In this document: piece after piece, positions 23,141-27,491 of the stretch
How the letters are laid out: the number at the start of each line of letters is the position of its first letter
Position numbering within the stretch: position 1 is the stretch's first letter
Source of the DNA: Clostridiales bacterium
GTDB lineage: Bacteria > Bacillota > Clostridia > Oscillospirales > Oscillospiraceae
Assembly (NCBI GenBank): GCA_021205695.1
Contig: JAJPXB010000034.1
Span: 31,627-68,021, forward strand
Direction of reading: 5' to 3'
Length of the DNA stretch: 36,395 bases
Notes under the pieces: model-generated
What the model was told of the DNA's origin: nothing
Database searches by the model: none
The model's input: the letters and a program-made list of their open reading frames with translations, nothing else
Program-made: the position numbers and the translations under genes

Positions 23141-23216
<76 letters not shown>

Positions 23217-23325: not shown

Positions 23326-24462
23326 TTAAATGGCGTCGGTGATGCGGCGGAGGCTCTCCAGATCTACGTCCTGATAGTACCGCAGCATCTCCGGTGAGGT
23401 GTGGCCGATGAGGCGGAGCTTGTCTTTGTCCGGGGCGTCCACAGCCTTCATCAGCGTGGCGAAGGTATGACGGCAGGAGTGGGGCGTGTACTTCCGGCGC
23501 TTCATCCCGTCTTTGACAGTGACGGGGTTGTCGATTCCCGCCGCCTCCAGCGCACGGTAGAAGGCCGCCCGGTACTGGTGGATCTGCATGGGGCCGCCGT
23601 CCTCTGCGCAGAACACCGGGCCGCTGATCCGGTCCTTCGTCAGCCGGTCGATGATGGGCTGGATCTTCGGAGACACTGGCACAGTGCGATTCCGCCCCGC
23701 CTCCGTCTTTGCCCCGCCGATGAACACGCACCGGACGGGGTCATAGTCCCGAGCATCCAGGGCCAGCAGCTCCGACGGGCGGAAGCCCAGGTAGCACTGG
23801 GCCACGATATAGTCCGCATAGGGCACAGAGCCGATGAGCGTCCGCAGCAGCTCCACCGCTTCCATGGGCAGGGCGTCCCGCTCGGCGGTCTCCCCTTCCC
23901 CTACGATGAGATACTGCCCCATGTTCAGGGCGGCCAGGTTACGGGGGATAGCGTACTTGTAGAGCAGGCCACAGAGGGCCTTCATGTTCTGCCGGGTCCG
24001 CTTCCCCTTCGGGCACTCGTCCATGCAGGCCTGGAGGTCGTCGATGTCGATGTCCGCCAGGTTGTACCACCAGACAGGCCGGAAGTAGTTCATGGCGGCG
24101 TGGTAGCAGTCCATGGTGGACTTCCCCGCCCGGTGAGTAGGCTCCCAGGCATCGTATACAGCCCGGAAGGTGACCGCCTTTTTCCGCTGTGGCTGGAGCA
24201 GCAGCTGGGGCAGGTAGGCCATGGCCTCACGCTTCGTCTTGAATCCGGCTTTGGACACTGTCTTTTTATGCTTCTGCCCGGCGGCGTCGATGGTATACCC
24301 CACCACCCGGCGGGCGATCCAGGTCTTGTTAGGCAGCTGGTACACCGTCCCCTGGCCGTTTCCCCGGGACTTTGGCCGCTGGCCTGTCCCCTGCTTTGCC
24401 CCGCAGCGGAGGCAATAGACGGCGTTCTCCGGGAGGTCGGCGTGGCATTTTTTACAGCGCAT
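23326..24462 (-). CDS. int: Phage tyrosine integrase with N-terminal zinc ribbon
   Basis: A 378-residue site-specific recombinase that integrates and excises the prophage. It begins with a zinc ribbon, MRCKKCHADLPENAVYCLRC (Cys3, 6, 17, 20), then an AP2-like arm-binding region (about 35-95), a core-binding SAM-like domain (about 97-185) and the catalytic domain. Catalytic residues: Arg228 (GFRPSELL), Lys252 (GGAKTEAGRNRTVPV), His328/Arg331 (HSCRHTF), His354 (GHTS) and nucleophile Tyr363 (RYYQDVD). The start at 24462 was chosen because AAGGAG lies 5 nt upstream; a GTG start 21 nt earlier has no comparable SD. It is oriented toward the tRNA-Ala. The gap upstream is filled by an opposing small RNA candidate. 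Confidence 0.95.
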   Translation of the reverse strand: MRCKKCHADLPENAVYCLRCGAKQGTGQRPKSRGNGQGTVYQLPNKTWIARRVVGYTIDAAGQKHKKTVSKAGFKTKREAMAYLPQLLLQPQRKKAVTFRAVYDAWEPTHRAGKSTMDCYHAAMNYFRPVWWYNLADIDIDDLQACMDECPKGKRTRQNMKALCGLLYKYAIPRNLAALNMGQYLIVGEGETAERDALPMEAVELLRTLIGSVPYADYIVAQCYLGFRPSELLALDARDYDPVRCVFIGGAKTEAGRNRTVPVSPKIQPIIDRLTKDRISGPVFCAEDGGPMQIHQYRAAFYRALEAAGIDNPVTVKDGMKRRKYTPHSCRHTFATLMKAVDAPDKDKLRLIGHTSPEMLRYYQDVDLESLRRITDAI

Positions 24463-24477
24463 TTTGGCTCCTTTCTC

Positions 24478-24506
24478 TTGCACCCCGCCGCCCTGTCTGG
24501 TACAAT
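24478..24506 (+). promoter_or_regulatory. Promoter of the integrase-adjacent small RNA
   Basis: Plus strand TTGCAC (24478-24483, 4/6), 17-bp spacer, TACAAT (24501-24506, 5/6). No plus-strand protein gene follows. It opposes the integrase gene; the -35 lies just upstream of the integrase SD. Confidence 0.6.
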
Positions 24507-24511
24507 AAAAG

Positions 24512-24630
24512 GGCGCAAGGGTGCCTTTGTGGTTATTGGTTCGCTTGCTTTTGGCCCTGTCCTGCTGGTAACAGGCGGGCCGCTCGCCTCTCTCGGTGTT
24601 GGTACCACCGGGAGGGGCTTTTTTTCTTTT
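24512..24630 (+). ncRNA. Putative structured small RNA opposite the integrase leader
   Basis: About 119 nt between a promoter-like sequence and a strong terminator. Predicted structure: small hairpin GGCGC-AAGG-GTGCC near the 5' end (24512-24525); middle stem GGCCC (24553-24557)/GGGCC (24577-24581) with inner CCTG/CAGG; and terminator stem 24586-24598 with 24606-24618 (13 bp, two G-U), then T7-C-T6. No ORF with an SD lies inside. It is antisense to the whole 169-bp gap between the membrane-protein gene and int, so it could base-pair with the int mRNA leader. I do not recognise a named RNA family. Confidence 0.6.
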
Positions 24631-24631
24631 T

Positions 24632-25036
24632 TCAGGGTGTGCGCATAAAACCGATGAAGGCCAGCAGCGCCTCCAGGATCACAAACATGAAATAGCCAGG
24701 ATATACCACCAGGGCCACAGTGTAGAGGATCGCCCCGGCCAGGGCCATCTTCCGGCTCTTCCGGGCGAAGGCAAAGCCGGTGAAGATTACGGCCAGGAGG
24801 GTCAGCACCATGTGGGGCCAGACAAGGAACTGGCTGACGATGTCCCCCACCAGGGCCAGCAGATCCGCCGAGATCTCTGCGCTGAGGGGACTATCCACAT
24901 AGGTGATAAACAGCAGGAATACCAGGTAAATAAAACCCAGCAGGAAGGCAAAGAACAGGCAGACGCTGTGCTTTGCCTTTTTTCGTTGCTGCTCCTTCTG
25001 ATACTCCATATATTGCTTTCTGTAGTCGGATGCCAT
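24632..25036 (-). CDS. Small prophage membrane protein, unknown function
   Basis: A 134-residue protein with a basic, amphipathic N-terminus (YRKQYMEYQKEQQRKKAKH) followed by about four hydrophobic helices (near 25-47, 58-72, 74-90 and 97-128). There are no catalytic motifs and I do not recognise the family. AAGGAG precedes the ATG at 25036. It lies between the repressor and integrase genes, all on the minus strand, a position where phages often carry lysogeny-expressed accessory genes (superinfection exclusion, abortive infection or host-interaction proteins). That role is positional inference only. Its stop codon abuts the T-run of the opposing small RNA. Confidence 0.7.
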   Translation of the reverse strand: MASDYRKQYMEYQKEQQRKKAKHSVCLFFAFLLGFIYLVFLLFITYVDSPLSAEISADLLALVGDIVSQFLVWPHMVLTLLAVIFTGFAFARKSRKMALAGAILYTVALVVYPGYFMFVILEALLAFIGFMRTP

Positions 25037-25083
25037 TTCTCTCTCCTTCTTTCTCTGTTTTTAATTTAGCGGCAGAGAGTTAT

Positions 25084-25686
25084 TTATAATGCCGCTCTGA
25101 ATTCTATCTTACTGCCCGGCTCATTCTTTTGACGTTCCATGCGATCAAGAAGAAAGCTAGCGTAGTCCAGCAGTTGGAGCAGCTCTGGATTGTCGAGCTG
25201 ACGGGCAATGCGGTTTAGTTCGTCCATTTGAGGGTCTGCGTCCCCATCGGAGTATAAAGAAATATGCTCCGCCTCTTCATCCCAGTTAAGACTGAAAAGC
25301 TCAGAAATTAAATTTTTGTCATATTTGGGAAGGCGATCTGCTGCTTCTCCCGCATTTGAAGCCGTGCGAAGTATCTGCCAGATATACCATGTCTCACGGA
25401 AGTCATTTCCAGTTACGCTATTTAGCTTTTCCCTCGTTTTAGGATATATCACATCTGCGCGGCCATCCGGGTCACTGTCATAGTTATACTTATCTAGCGC
25501 TAGCCCAAGCAAATAATCCACCGACACATTGAAGAACTGGGCGACTTTCGCAAGCTTATCTCCAGAGGGGAAAGCGTTGTCCCATTTCCGAATAGTGCCG
25601 TTTCCAAAATCAAGGCGGCGCTCCAGCGCTGCAACGGTAATATTCTTTTCTGCACACAGCGTTTTAATCTTTTCAACAAGCGACAT
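25084..25686 (-). CDS. CI-type prophage repressor (XRE-family HTH)
   Basis: A 200-residue lysogeny repressor candidate. Residues 4-62 form an XRE/Cro-C1 helix-turn-helix: IKTLCAEKNITVAALERRLD, recognition-helix region GNGTIRKWDN, and FNVSVDYLLGL. The C-terminal part ends in a predicted helix (PELLQLLDYASFLLDRMER) that may mediate oligomerisation. No S24/LexA-like Ser-Lys protease motif is visible and no ImmA-type metallopeptidase is adjacent, so classical RecA-driven self-cleavage is not supported. GGAGGTG precedes the ATG at 25686. It is transcribed leftward from the promoter at 25809-25837, convergent with the early promoter. Its HTH is about half identical to that of the Cro-like protein at 25878-26087. 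Confidence 0.85.
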   Translation of the reverse strand: MSLVEKIKTLCAEKNITVAALERRLDFGNGTIRKWDNAFPSGDKLAKVAQFFNVSVDYLLGLALDKYNYDSDPDGRADVIYPKTREKLNSVTGNDFRETWYIWQILRTASNAGEAADRLPKYDKNLISELFSLNWDEEAEHISLYSDGDADPQMDELNRIARQLDNPELLQLLDYASFLLDRMERQKNEPGSKIEFRAAL

Positions 25687-25877: not shown

Positions 25878-26087
25878 ATGCTTTACCGGCAGATCAAGAC
25901 CCTGTGCGCTGCCAAGGGAATCAGCATTGCAAAGCTGGAGCGAGAGTGCGACCTGGGTAATGCTACCGTAAGACGGTGGGAGAATGAAGACCGGTCTCCG
26001 TCGCTGGAAAGTGTCCGGAGGGTCGCAGATTATTTCGGCGTCTCCGTCGACTTTCTGCTCGGGAGGACGACCAACGCCGAACAGTAA
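25878..26087 (+). CDS. Cro-like regulator (XRE-family HTH)
   Basis: A 69-residue protein that is almost entirely a helix-turn-helix: IKTLCAAKGISIAKLERECD, GNATVRRWENE and VSVDFLLGR. It closely parallels the repressor HTH, with GNATVRRW against GNGTIRKW in the recognition region, so both probably read the same operators. The ATG at 25878 has AGGAGGT 7 nt upstream and was preferred over an in-frame GTG that would overlap the SD. It is the first gene of the rightward early operon. Expected role: shut off the repressor promoter and favour lytic growth. Confidence 0.85.
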   Translation: MLYRQIKTLCAAKGISIAKLERECDLGNATVRRWENEDRSPSLESVRRVADYFGVSVDFLLGRTTNAEQ

Positions 26088-26118
26088 CCCCGGAGGGGGG
26101 GATAAGGAGGTGAAGAAG

Positions 26119-26469
26119 ATGGAACTCCATATCATTGGCAGCCCGGAGGAGATCGCCGCTCTGCTGCTGGAGCTGCGCAGACAACCAGCGGAGCCCGACG
26201 CAGACACGATCGAATTTGTTGGCCCATATCACGCAGAAGCCCCCGCAGAAATCCCCGTAAGGATCTCAGGTAACAAAGATCTGATCGCCAACATCGAGGC
26301 CGAGCGGGCACGTGCTGGACTGTCACGGGCAGAGTTTGTCCGGAAGCTGGGGATAGCTCGGCAGACCCTCTACAACTGGTACGCTGGTGGTAGCATCCCA
26401 TGGGCAAGGCTGCAGCAGATAGCCGACCTGTTCCAGATCGATGTCCTAGCCCTTATGGGGATTAAGTAA
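26119..26469 (+). CDS. Phage regulator with C-terminal XRE HTH
   Basis: A 116-residue protein. The N-terminal half (about 1-58) has no recognised domain; the C-terminal half (about 60-116) is an XRE helix-turn-helix with IEAERARAGLSRAEFVRKLG, IARQTLYNWYAGGSIP and IADLFQIDVLALMGIK. The ATG at 26119 follows AAGGAGGT with ideal spacing; the open frame extends upstream over the Cro-like gene but no start there has an SD. Probably an early transcription regulator (CII-like or antirepressor-like role possible); its target is unknown. Confidence 0.8.
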   Translation: MELHIIGSPEEIAALLLELRRQPAEPDADTIEFVGPYHAEAPAEIPVRISGNKDLIANIEAERARAGLSRAEFVRKLGIARQTLYNWYAGGSIPWARLQQIADLFQIDVLALMGIK

Positions 26470-26529: not shown

Positions 26530-26763
26530 ATGGAAGATAAAGCCAGTTCTAGTGTCAGCCGGATGTTGAAGGAAATCAGCGCCCAAGCATCTATCGTTAC
26601 AATAGATGCCGCACTGAAACTGATTGACGATGCACCAGACGGCGACCTGGACTATGTGACCATTGGATTGCAGTACATGAAGCTCAAATGGTCAAAAGAG
26701 ATGGCAAAGCTACACCAGGATAGGAAGGAGGCGAACAACCATGGCAACTGCAAAGACCCTTGA
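26530..26763 (+). CDS. Small early phage protein, unknown function
   Basis: A 77-residue, mostly helical protein (MEDKASSSVSRMLKEISAQA...). No domain was recognised. The ATG at 26530 has AGGAGGT 7 nt upstream. Its 3' end overlaps the next gene by 23 nt in another frame, consistent with compact early phage operons. Confidence 0.65.
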   Translation: MEDKASSSVSRMLKEISAQASIVTIDAALKLIDDAPDGDLDYVTIGLQYMKLKWSKEMAKLHQDRKEANNHGNCKDP

Positions 26764-26977
26764 CGACCTGATCGCCAGCGACAAGGCATTTCTCACCGCC
26801 GACGATGTGGCCGGGGTGCTGGGCTCCTGTCCGCACACCATCCGGCTGACAGCGAAGCAGCGGCCGGAGCTGCTGGGCTTTCCGGTGGTCGTCCTGGGCA
26901 ATCCGCAGGATATCAACTACGCCCGTGTCAAGATCCCCCGCATCCCCTTCCTGCGGTTTATGGGAGTGCGTATCTGA
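26741..26977 (+). CDS. Small HTH protein, excisionase-like candidate
   Basis: A 78-residue protein with LTADDVAGVLGSCPHTIRLT, which fits a winged-helix/MerR-type helix-turn-helix as in excisionases, then a beta-wing-like end RVKIPRIPFLRFMG. AAGGAGG precedes the ATG at 26741. Phage proteins with this layout act as directionality factors or as early regulators. A Xis role is plausible because no other excisionase candidate is visible, but it is not next to int. Confidence 0.65.
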   Translation: MATAKTLDDLIASDKAFLTADDVAGVLGSCPHTIRLTAKQRPELLGFPVVVLGNPQDINYARVKIPRIPFLRFMGVRI

Positions 26978-26985
26978 TAGAAAGC

Positions 26986-27068
26986 GCCCCCATCGGAGGG
27001 GCAAACTCCGATGAGGGCAGAGGTTAGCGACAGACATAAAGAGCCGCTGTGGTCATTATACCACGGCG
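26986..27068. promoter_or_regulatory. Two hairpins and a possible leftward promoter in a 115-bp gap
   Basis: Hairpin one: 26986-26998 with 27006-27018 (13 bp, one mismatch, 7-nt loop). Hairpin two: 27045-27053 with 27060-27068 (9 bp with one G-U, 6-nt loop). The second contains a minus-strand TATAAT (27055-27060) with TTGTCC 18 bp upstream at 27079-27084. Either these structure the early mRNA ahead of the next gene, or a short leftward RNA starts near 27048 and ends at hairpin one. Confidence 0.4.
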
Positions 27069-27092
27069 AGGACAGAAAGGACAATAGAAAAT

Positions 27093-27491
27093 ATGATGAT
27101 TTTGAGTGCAGAAGATGAACAGATCCGCGAGGAGAACCTGGAGCTGAATGCCCTGGTCAACAACCCTGTGGCGGTTCGGCAGGCCGAGCGGGCGAAGGAT
27201 GAGGCCGCTCGGGAGGCTGCACAGCGGGAGCTGATGGAGACCCGGCAGCTGATTGCGGCCAAGAAAGAACGGGCCCGCCGGGACGCACGGAAGGCCGCAC
27301 AGCTGCGGCGGGTGCTGGTCCAGGCCCTCTATTTGGCAGTGCTGCTCGCACTGGCCTATGGCGTGGGAGTCCTCTACAGCAGCGGGGACATCTCTGCCCC
27401 CGTTTTCCAGGGGTCACGGCTGGGCCTGTGCGTTCTGGCCCTGTGGCACGGTGTCCAGCTGTCCAGGGCGATGTGGAGGTGGACGGCATGA
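27093..27491 (+). CDS. Coiled-coil membrane protein of the early phage operon
   Basis: A 132-residue protein. Residues about 5-70 are charged and alanine-rich, with strong heptad character (coiled coil); residues about 73-95 and 105-125 are hydrophobic and probably membrane-spanning. I do not recognise the family. The SD is weak (AAAGGA about 11 nt before ATG 27093), suggesting lower or regulated translation relative to its neighbours. Its stop overlaps the next gene as ATGA. Confidence 0.65.
   Translation: MMILSAEDEQIREENLELNALVNNPVAVRQAERAKDEAAREAAQRELMETRQLIAAKKERARRDARKAAQLRRVLVQALYLAVLLALAYGVGVLYSSGDISAPVFQGSRLGLCVLALWHGVQLSRAMWRWTA

Follow-up and report, generated by a model that had tools for sequence, protein, structure and literature searches.

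A prophage of an Oscillospiraceae bacterium carries, in the gap upstream of its integrase gene, a unit that we read as a cis-encoded antisense RNA damping the gene behind its promoter, like plasmid counter-transcribed RNAs (ctRNAs) or IS10 RNA-OUT; from sequence analysis, we put the probability of this reading at roughly 0.6. By sequence, the unit and its relatives have a promoter, a foldable RNA and a terminator; they are conserved, they covary on the RNA strand and their usual neighbor is a recombinase gene.

The window (the whole 36,395-nucleotide stretch of DNA that was analyzed) contains the following features, with arms P, A and B naming segments referred to throughout.

23141-23216 (+): tRNA-Ala (GGC), directly past the 3′ end of int
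23326-24462 (-): tyrosine integrase gene int (PF00589, N-terminal zinc ribbon), divergent from the RNA promoter
24478-24506 (+): RNA promoter, with TTGCAC at 24478-24483, a 17-base spacer, TACAAT at 24501-24506 and a TGG that makes an extended -10
24482-24523 (no strand): imperfect palindrome, arms P and A, centered on the -10 box, placed by applying family medians to the window
24512-24632 (+): predicted RNA of about 115-120 nt, its start placed from the -10 box
24515-24548 (+): stem 1, arms A and B, a hypervariable covarying hairpin, from the transcript fold and the family tests
24552-24582 (+): stem-loop SL2 with a CUGGUAA loop, present in the long (three-hairpin) class only
24586-24632 (+): SL3, an intrinsic terminator with a 13-bp stem at 24586-24618, a 7-base UUGGUAC loop and T7-C-T6 at 24619-24632
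24632-25036 (-): small membrane protein gene (phrog_31229), codirectional with int, "membrane" being the description given in the sequence-only reading
25084-25686 (-): Cro/CI-type helix-turn-helix (HTH) protein of the prophage, beyond the phrog_31229 gene
25984-26469 (rightward): HTH protein, the first of the rightward genes, with small ORFs after it
26974-27084 (-): second RNA unit, E2, with TTGTCC-18-TATAAT and a TG, a hairpin and a terminator at 27019-26985
27093-27491 (+): small gene behind E2, in the early rightward cluster, with the SbcC-like gene two genes further on
from 27725 (rightward): SbcC-like AAA gene, with a Sak4-like annealing protein, helicase and primase in the same cluster

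The unit belongs to a prophage, for which the tRNA-Ala (GGC) gene is the likely attachment site. The start of int was best placed at the ATG at 24462, with the Shine-Dalgarno sequence (SD) AAAGGAGCC (AAAGGAG/AAGGAGC around 24468-24474), while the GTG at 24483, the start in the ORF list, is an in-frame codon upstream of it. Because the ATG at 24462 is the start, the gap between int and the membrane protein gene is 169 bp, matching the value in the sequence-only reading. The T-run of the RNA touches the stop of the membrane protein ORF, its last T being the first base of the stop codon on the minus strand. Two long plus-strand frames, 23401-24648 and 24372-24695, cross the RNA site antisense to int, and no relatives of the membrane protein were found in viral contigs.

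The TTGCAC-17-TACAAT promoter, the three stem-loops and the 13-bp terminator with T7-C-T6, all noted from the letters alone, were borne out by sequence and fold. A strict sigma-70 scan of positions 24000-25100 lists no promoter, because the -35 box matches the consensus at only three of six positions; a terminator scan of the same region returned five sites versus 1.2 expected. The 115 nt from 24512 to 24626 fold into three hairpins at -54 kcal/mol, as compared with -40.9 (sd 3.6) for shuffled sequences (z -3.65, 0 of 200 as low), and a 163-nt stretch gave the same z of -3.65, with 1 of 200 shuffles as low. Stem 1 pairs 24515-24519 with 24544-24548, plus inner pairs, and is longer than the obvious short hairpin at 24509-24528; the transcript fold together with the family evidence supports this longer predicted form.

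The unit was widespread among related bacteria. A DNA search recovered it in 8 of 98 genomes, its own included. Units from same-genus relatives (L002, L003, L004, L005, L007 and L010) were 71-79% identical in DNA sequence along most of the unit, and the divergent integrases at L002 (a 180-aa ORF), L003, L005, L007, L010 and L011 were only 19-21% identical to that of the window, the L004 integrase being 68% identical. A covariance model (R1), built from an alignment (A1) of nine copies of the long class, matched 92 of 300 genomes of the family Oscillospiraceae at E 0.01 or better, the weakest of these matches being partial and possibly other terminators. The long class has three hairpins, as in the window unit, and the commoner short class, of approximately 90 nt, comprises stem 1 and the terminator. 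Model R3, for the short class (from alignment A5), gave a match at E 0.0001 in 68 of the 295 genomes sampled from the order, 48 being from other families, and model R2, for a second short group designated class II (from alignment A4), matched 5 of 348 genomes of the phylum, two of them outside the order. These three proportions form no clean gradient, because model, cut-off and sampling differ, and they suggest that the unit is a feature of this bacterial order with few matches outside it. The family member Oscillibacter valericigenes has the unit at its integrase (L015; 33.5 bits with R1, 52.5 bits with R3).

The promoter layout of the window recurred in 152 of the 165 family hits, with an extended -10 in 112 of these and a 17-base spacer in 128. 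A promoter score of at least 9 on the RNA strand was reached by 97% of 97 non-redundant units, which had been chosen for having a promoter, versus 8% of shuffles. Short ORFs inside these 97 elements were not in excess (26 of 97, versus 33% in shuffles), nor were short ORFs preceded by an SD matching at four or more of six positions (5 of 97, versus 4%); on these counts a translated small ORF in the RNA was rejected, in keeping with the earlier claim that the gap holds no ORF. The terminator loop was recognized in 34 of the 97 elements, and its closing position was U.G in 25, C.A in 8 and C-G in 1, which resembles a wobble alternation and hardly ever takes a Watson-Crick form. A similarity search of phage and plasmid DNA records gave no match to the unit, and IMG/VR, scanned for the patterns of two class I cores, yielded none; units in viral contigs were reached via integrase homology, at the integrase in L022, L023 and L025 and elsewhere in the contig in L024. 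The loop motif (U/C)UGGUA(G/A) recurred in both SL2 and SL3 of the long class. As a marker, the loop motif GTGYTGGTARCAC was too weak to be kept (11 matches in 8 of 30 genomes, versus 3 for the reversed control), and it was not found in the unit's own genome in that 30-genome scan. Contig C18 of this genome carries a further unit (L068, 1525-1724, plus strand), about 45 bases longer in the region of stem 1; the element may be decaying, because the integrase frame behind the unit holds a stop codon.

Genes behind the promoter were most often recombinases. A divergent gene was sought within about 150 bases for 107 distinct hits, giving 91 ORFs and 16 hits without one, and 68 of the 91 were recombinases by Pfam: 63 PF00589 (Phage_integrase) and 5 PF00239 (Resolvase, large serine). 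In a later search with 52 hits, two without an ORF, 27 of 50 ORFs were recombinases (23 PF00589 and 4 PF00239), this set being not wholly independent, in that L239 was in the training set of R3 and L199 and L207 are 98% identical. The divergent ORFs that were not recombinases by these two families (23 of 91 and 23 of 50) lay mostly at weaker hits and comprised phrog_2113 small proteins (three tested), SbcC-like AAA genes (2 of 50) and genes of no known family. Among hits of at least 40 bits (n = 54), 40 carried the signature of a tyrosine recombinase and 3 that of a serine recombinase, 8 had neither, several of these frames being short or truncated, and 3 had no ORF. Additionally, PHROGs identified L086, L087 and L092 as integrases, which may already count among the 63. 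This recurrence of promoter-hairpin-terminator units beside integrases supports what the sequence-only reading had put forward, an independent RNA, roughly 119 nt long and antisense to the leader of int.

The promoter of the unit touches or adjoins the ribosome-binding site of the divergent gene, at tyrosine and serine recombinases alike, with the SD located past the -35 box of the antisense promoter (the arrangement in the window), overlapping that box, or inside the promoter spacer. One locus, L218, has two tandem units on the minus strand, at 740-847 before a 140-aa gene and at 1272-1391 before a large serine recombinase. The unit as a universal int feature was rejected from integrases with PF14659: none of 29 readable best-per-genome loci carried it or had an antisense terminator within 230 bases, and among 39 further readable integrases, which came from 42 taken in listing order rather than at random (three unreadable, contig ends skipped, ten from the single genome G100), six had an antisense terminator, three a sense terminator and three a whole unit, all three of the latter being earlier R1 hits.

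The second unit of the window, E2, which like the promoter palindrome had gone unnoticed in the sequence-only reading, scored 34.7 bits with R3 (E 7e-9) and was confirmed by an independent promoter and terminator scan. It faces the first unit across the immunity region, between the ORF at 26741-26977 and the gene at 27093-27491, and by eye shows a palindrome over its own -10 box. Face-to-face pairs of units were present in other prophages as well (L102, L111, L072, L091, L105, L112 and L239), and the second units precede varied genes, for example that of a phrog_2113 protein (L091) or an SbcC-like gene (L219). No signal of pairing emerged, either between the two RNAs that a prophage carries or between the first RNA and the leader behind the second.

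We then considered which molecule the conserved structure belongs to. The complementarity tests took two-hairpin elements bearing both promoter and terminator, with near-duplicates removed (45 of 107 hits and 97 of 165 hits), so that the long class of the window unit lies mostly outside them and has as its own evidence the nine sequences of A1. The first such test was replaced by fixed-window tests, because its arms had been chosen by folding. With fixed windows, the arms of stem 1 in the 45 non-redundant short elements gave an energy z of -9.8 (0 of 10,000 permutations), and within-element complementarity across the 97 elements gave a z of 16.7 (0 of 5000 permutations). Stem 1 of class II had 24 cells changed on both sides, versus 9.0 in shuffles, and SL2 of the long class had 15, versus 4.5 (0 of 500 in both cases), the two structures having been derived from the same alignments, which favors them; with the partners slid by one to three columns, at most 11 and 7 both-side changes were seen, respectively. 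The sequence-only reading had staked its RNA on conservation in related loci; the units are conserved there, and SL2 and stem 1 covary.

Under symmetric scoring, wobble counts indicate which strand folds. In stem 1 of the 97 elements, the ratio of G.U to A.C was 192:61, versus 17096:8048 between elements (odds ratio 1.48, p 0.007), and in the first set of 45 it was 123:31 (odds ratio 1.55, p 0.036), while the positive control, terminator stems of 44 family members, had 103 G.U versus 11 A.C on the RNA strand. Because stem 1 wobbles favor the RNA strand, it is the RNA, and not the int mRNA, on which selection appears to act; the two sets agree, and with moderate strength they point to the RNA as the molecule that folds, in preference to the int leader. 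Complementarity to the message is automatic for any antisense RNA, and covariation cannot itself test for it. A hypervariable, covarying hairpin set between a constant promoter and a constant terminator is what would be expected of cis-antisense systems that do not cross-talk.

The same hypervariable stem 1 is unlike the shared seed of a trans-acting small RNA, the likeliest of the alternatives, under which the main target would be another host or phage message and the neighborhood of int would be where the RNA travels. The unit's own promoter and terminator, its recurring long-class loop motif and the greater conservation of the RNA than of the neighboring integrase are all compatible with action in trans, but in the loci read the start of the RNA falls on or next to the ribosome-binding site of the divergent gene, with both recombinase types, and we regard a trans-acting role as unlikely.

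For int itself, the evidence at hand makes an antisense mechanism probable. We propose that a vegetative-type promoter, its -35 box beside the SD of int, would fire away from int, and that its own terminator would end the resulting RNA of about 115-120 nt where the gene upstream of int has its stop codon. A message for int entering from beyond the unit, whether by read-through from the upstream gene or from a start at the far edge, would carry the full complement of the RNA. We infer that the RNA is transcribed, that it pairs with this leader through the variable stem-loop 1, and that pairing lowers int expression, by RNase III attack or loss of translation. The recombinase would thus be kept scarce in the lysogen, each element having a private hairpin within a generic promoter and terminator, and E2 would act likewise on the gene in the rightward early cluster.

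With respect to messages entering the unit, the int-strand frame was open through all 500 bases beyond it in 26 of 62 recombinase loci, versus 1 of 62 for the RNA strand. A likely int promoter just beyond the unit was seen in L007, L011 and L125, and among the 62 loci such promoters were strong only in these three (mean best score 4.0, versus 3.4 in shuffles). Promoter-like sites on the gene strand inside the unit (score of at least 9) were present in 7.2%, versus 2.6% of shuffles; because they exceed the shuffles, some int messages might start inside the unit and carry little of the complement, although none was seen inside the two window units.

Transcription opposed to int could also act by itself, if the active part were the opposing promoter, through collision with or occlusion of the polymerase reading into int, and the RNA a by-product. 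An extended -10 promoter that faces the incoming int transcript, and an int-strand frame that reaches the unit in 26 of the 62 loci, would suit such interference, but covariation of stem 1 and SL2 on the RNA strand would serve no purpose in a by-product, and we consider this explanation quite improbable.

The palindrome over the -10 box presents a separate question. Arm P, which spans the -35 box and the bases up to the -10, is complementary to arm A, the first bases past the -10, and the two covary (z -7.4 for the 45 elements and z 8.7 for the 97). No covariation was seen between P and B (z -0.3 and -1.2); for the 20 bases preceding the -35 box, set against A, the effect was weak (z -2.1). 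The center of the palindrome lay at a median of 1.5 bases from the start of the -10 box (interquartile range 0 to 3.6). Its wobbles had no strand preference (101:83, versus a background of 10558:9233), which sets it apart from an RNA hairpin formed by one strand or the other alone. The antisense explanation does not account for the palindrome. Were it the operator of a repressor, with the terminator as an insulator and the RNA incidental, its centering on the -10 box and lack of strand preference would follow; however, the RNA stems covary, and in nine same-prophage pairs the arms were no more alike than between prophages (14 pairs were listed, five failed the promoter or name match, and L111, L105 and L229 were left out), so that no shared phage repressor was seen. 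We accordingly rejected the palindrome as a shared phage-repressor operator and consider protein binding with an incidental RNA very improbable.

Least probable, in our estimation, is a switch within the int mRNA, in which the complement of A would pair with that of B or of P and so hide or free the SD: P:A covariation is in its favor, as are the greater SD exposure left by the native upstream part (0.47, versus 0.38 shuffled, p 0.0008, 38 leaders) and the exposures in the 12 leaders with the SD in the spacer, where A′ can hide the SD and B′ relieves this (0.38 for the whole leader, 0.21 on removal of B′, 0.55 on removal of both A′ and B′), but P:A lacks a wobble excess on the int strand, stem 1 wobbles favor the opposite strand, removal of B′ made no difference over all 38 leaders (p 0.26) and native A′ was no better than shuffled A′ at hiding the SD (p 0.67), and thus SD exposure in silico over the 38 leaders gave no support to it as a general mechanism.

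Returning to the cis-antisense reading, a broader form of it can be put forward tentatively, as a possibility in which we have distinctly less confidence. The unit would be a portable antisense cassette of the prophages and mobile elements of this order, plugging in where a key gene (a tyrosine or serine recombinase, or an early gene) has its ribosome-binding site, and bearing a private hairpin code against cross-regulation. Two opposed cassettes would often frame the immunity region, so that RNA would hold both the integration and the early lytic genes, and the palindrome would be a second control of the cassette.

Whether prophages and integrative elements remain in a genome or leave it depends on how site-specific recombinases are controlled. 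Antisense RNAs are well established as regulators of transposases and of plasmid replication, and the phages of bacteria related to Oscillibacter are, to our knowledge, little studied. Many unrelated integration genes of related bacteria have such a unit beside them, which probably keeps them in check. If true, lysogeny in Oscillibacter-related bacteria would include a layer of RNA control open to searching and testing, and the units would amount to natural sets of orthogonal antisense pairs.

Finally, we compared the unit with known RNAs. Rfam 15 at gathering score gave no match over the window unit, a tRNA being the sole match in the window, and only tRNA and tmRNA over 14 related loci; relaxed thresholds found no family for the unit either, which agrees with its not having been recognized from the letters. 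The best weak alignment, over SL2 and the terminator, was to ctRNA_pGA1 (RF00236; 19.3 bits, E 0.098), for which membership was rejected against a gathering score of 45 bits, leaving a resemblance only. Small phage RNAs that regulate lysogeny or early genes include c4 of P1/P7 (RF01695), sar of P22 and lambda OOP, with which the unit shares its small size and phage setting, but it has no Rfam match at gathering score. Candidate structured RNAs near integrases include int-alpA. Lacto-int, as a table entry, and c4 are both listed in one source (PMC2864571), and in another 28 candidate RNAs are described as mostly near integrase, sortase or phage domains, among them HMP2_7457 (67 bp, Firmicutes), often near integrases and expressed in fecal RNA-seq (PMC8040213). 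Lacto-int, int-alpA and these gut candidates, HMP2_7457 included, resemble the unit in their integrase neighborhood, as compared by description, and one of them could be part of its family. Site-specific recombinase COGs are reported as enriched among antisense-transcribed genes in gut bacteria (PMC4555090), which serves as background only, because the strain worked through there is a Bacteroides. The accessible part of PMC11109978 mentions integrases only for mobile repeat candidates. The open-licence literature searched contained no description of an RNA family that accompanies tyrosine as well as serine recombinases. As far as these searches show, the unit is an RNA family new to Rfam and to the searched literature, with Lacto-int, int-alpA and the gut candidates compared by description.

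Plasmid ctRNAs are short, have their own promoter and terminator and are encoded opposite the leader of the gene that they control. The unit is like ctRNA_pGA1 and its relatives in having its own promoter and terminator opposite a target leader, but it adjoins recombinases rather than replication genes. RNA-OUT of IS10/Tn10 is encoded opposite the start of the transposase gene and pairs with the ribosome-binding site itself. An RNA-OUT-like cover of the ribosome-binding site was rejected for the window, where the predicted start lies near 24512 and the SD around 24468-24474, so that the SD would be uncovered. RNA-OUT, which according to PMC4555090 lowers the level of transposase, resembles the proposed RNA in lying antisense to the beginning of a recombinase gene of a mobile element, whereas the unit would serve two classes of site-specific recombinases and not one transposase. 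With the cis-antisense class the unit has in common, by sequence, a promoter and terminator of its own opposite a target leader and a folded, conserved structure on the antisense strand.
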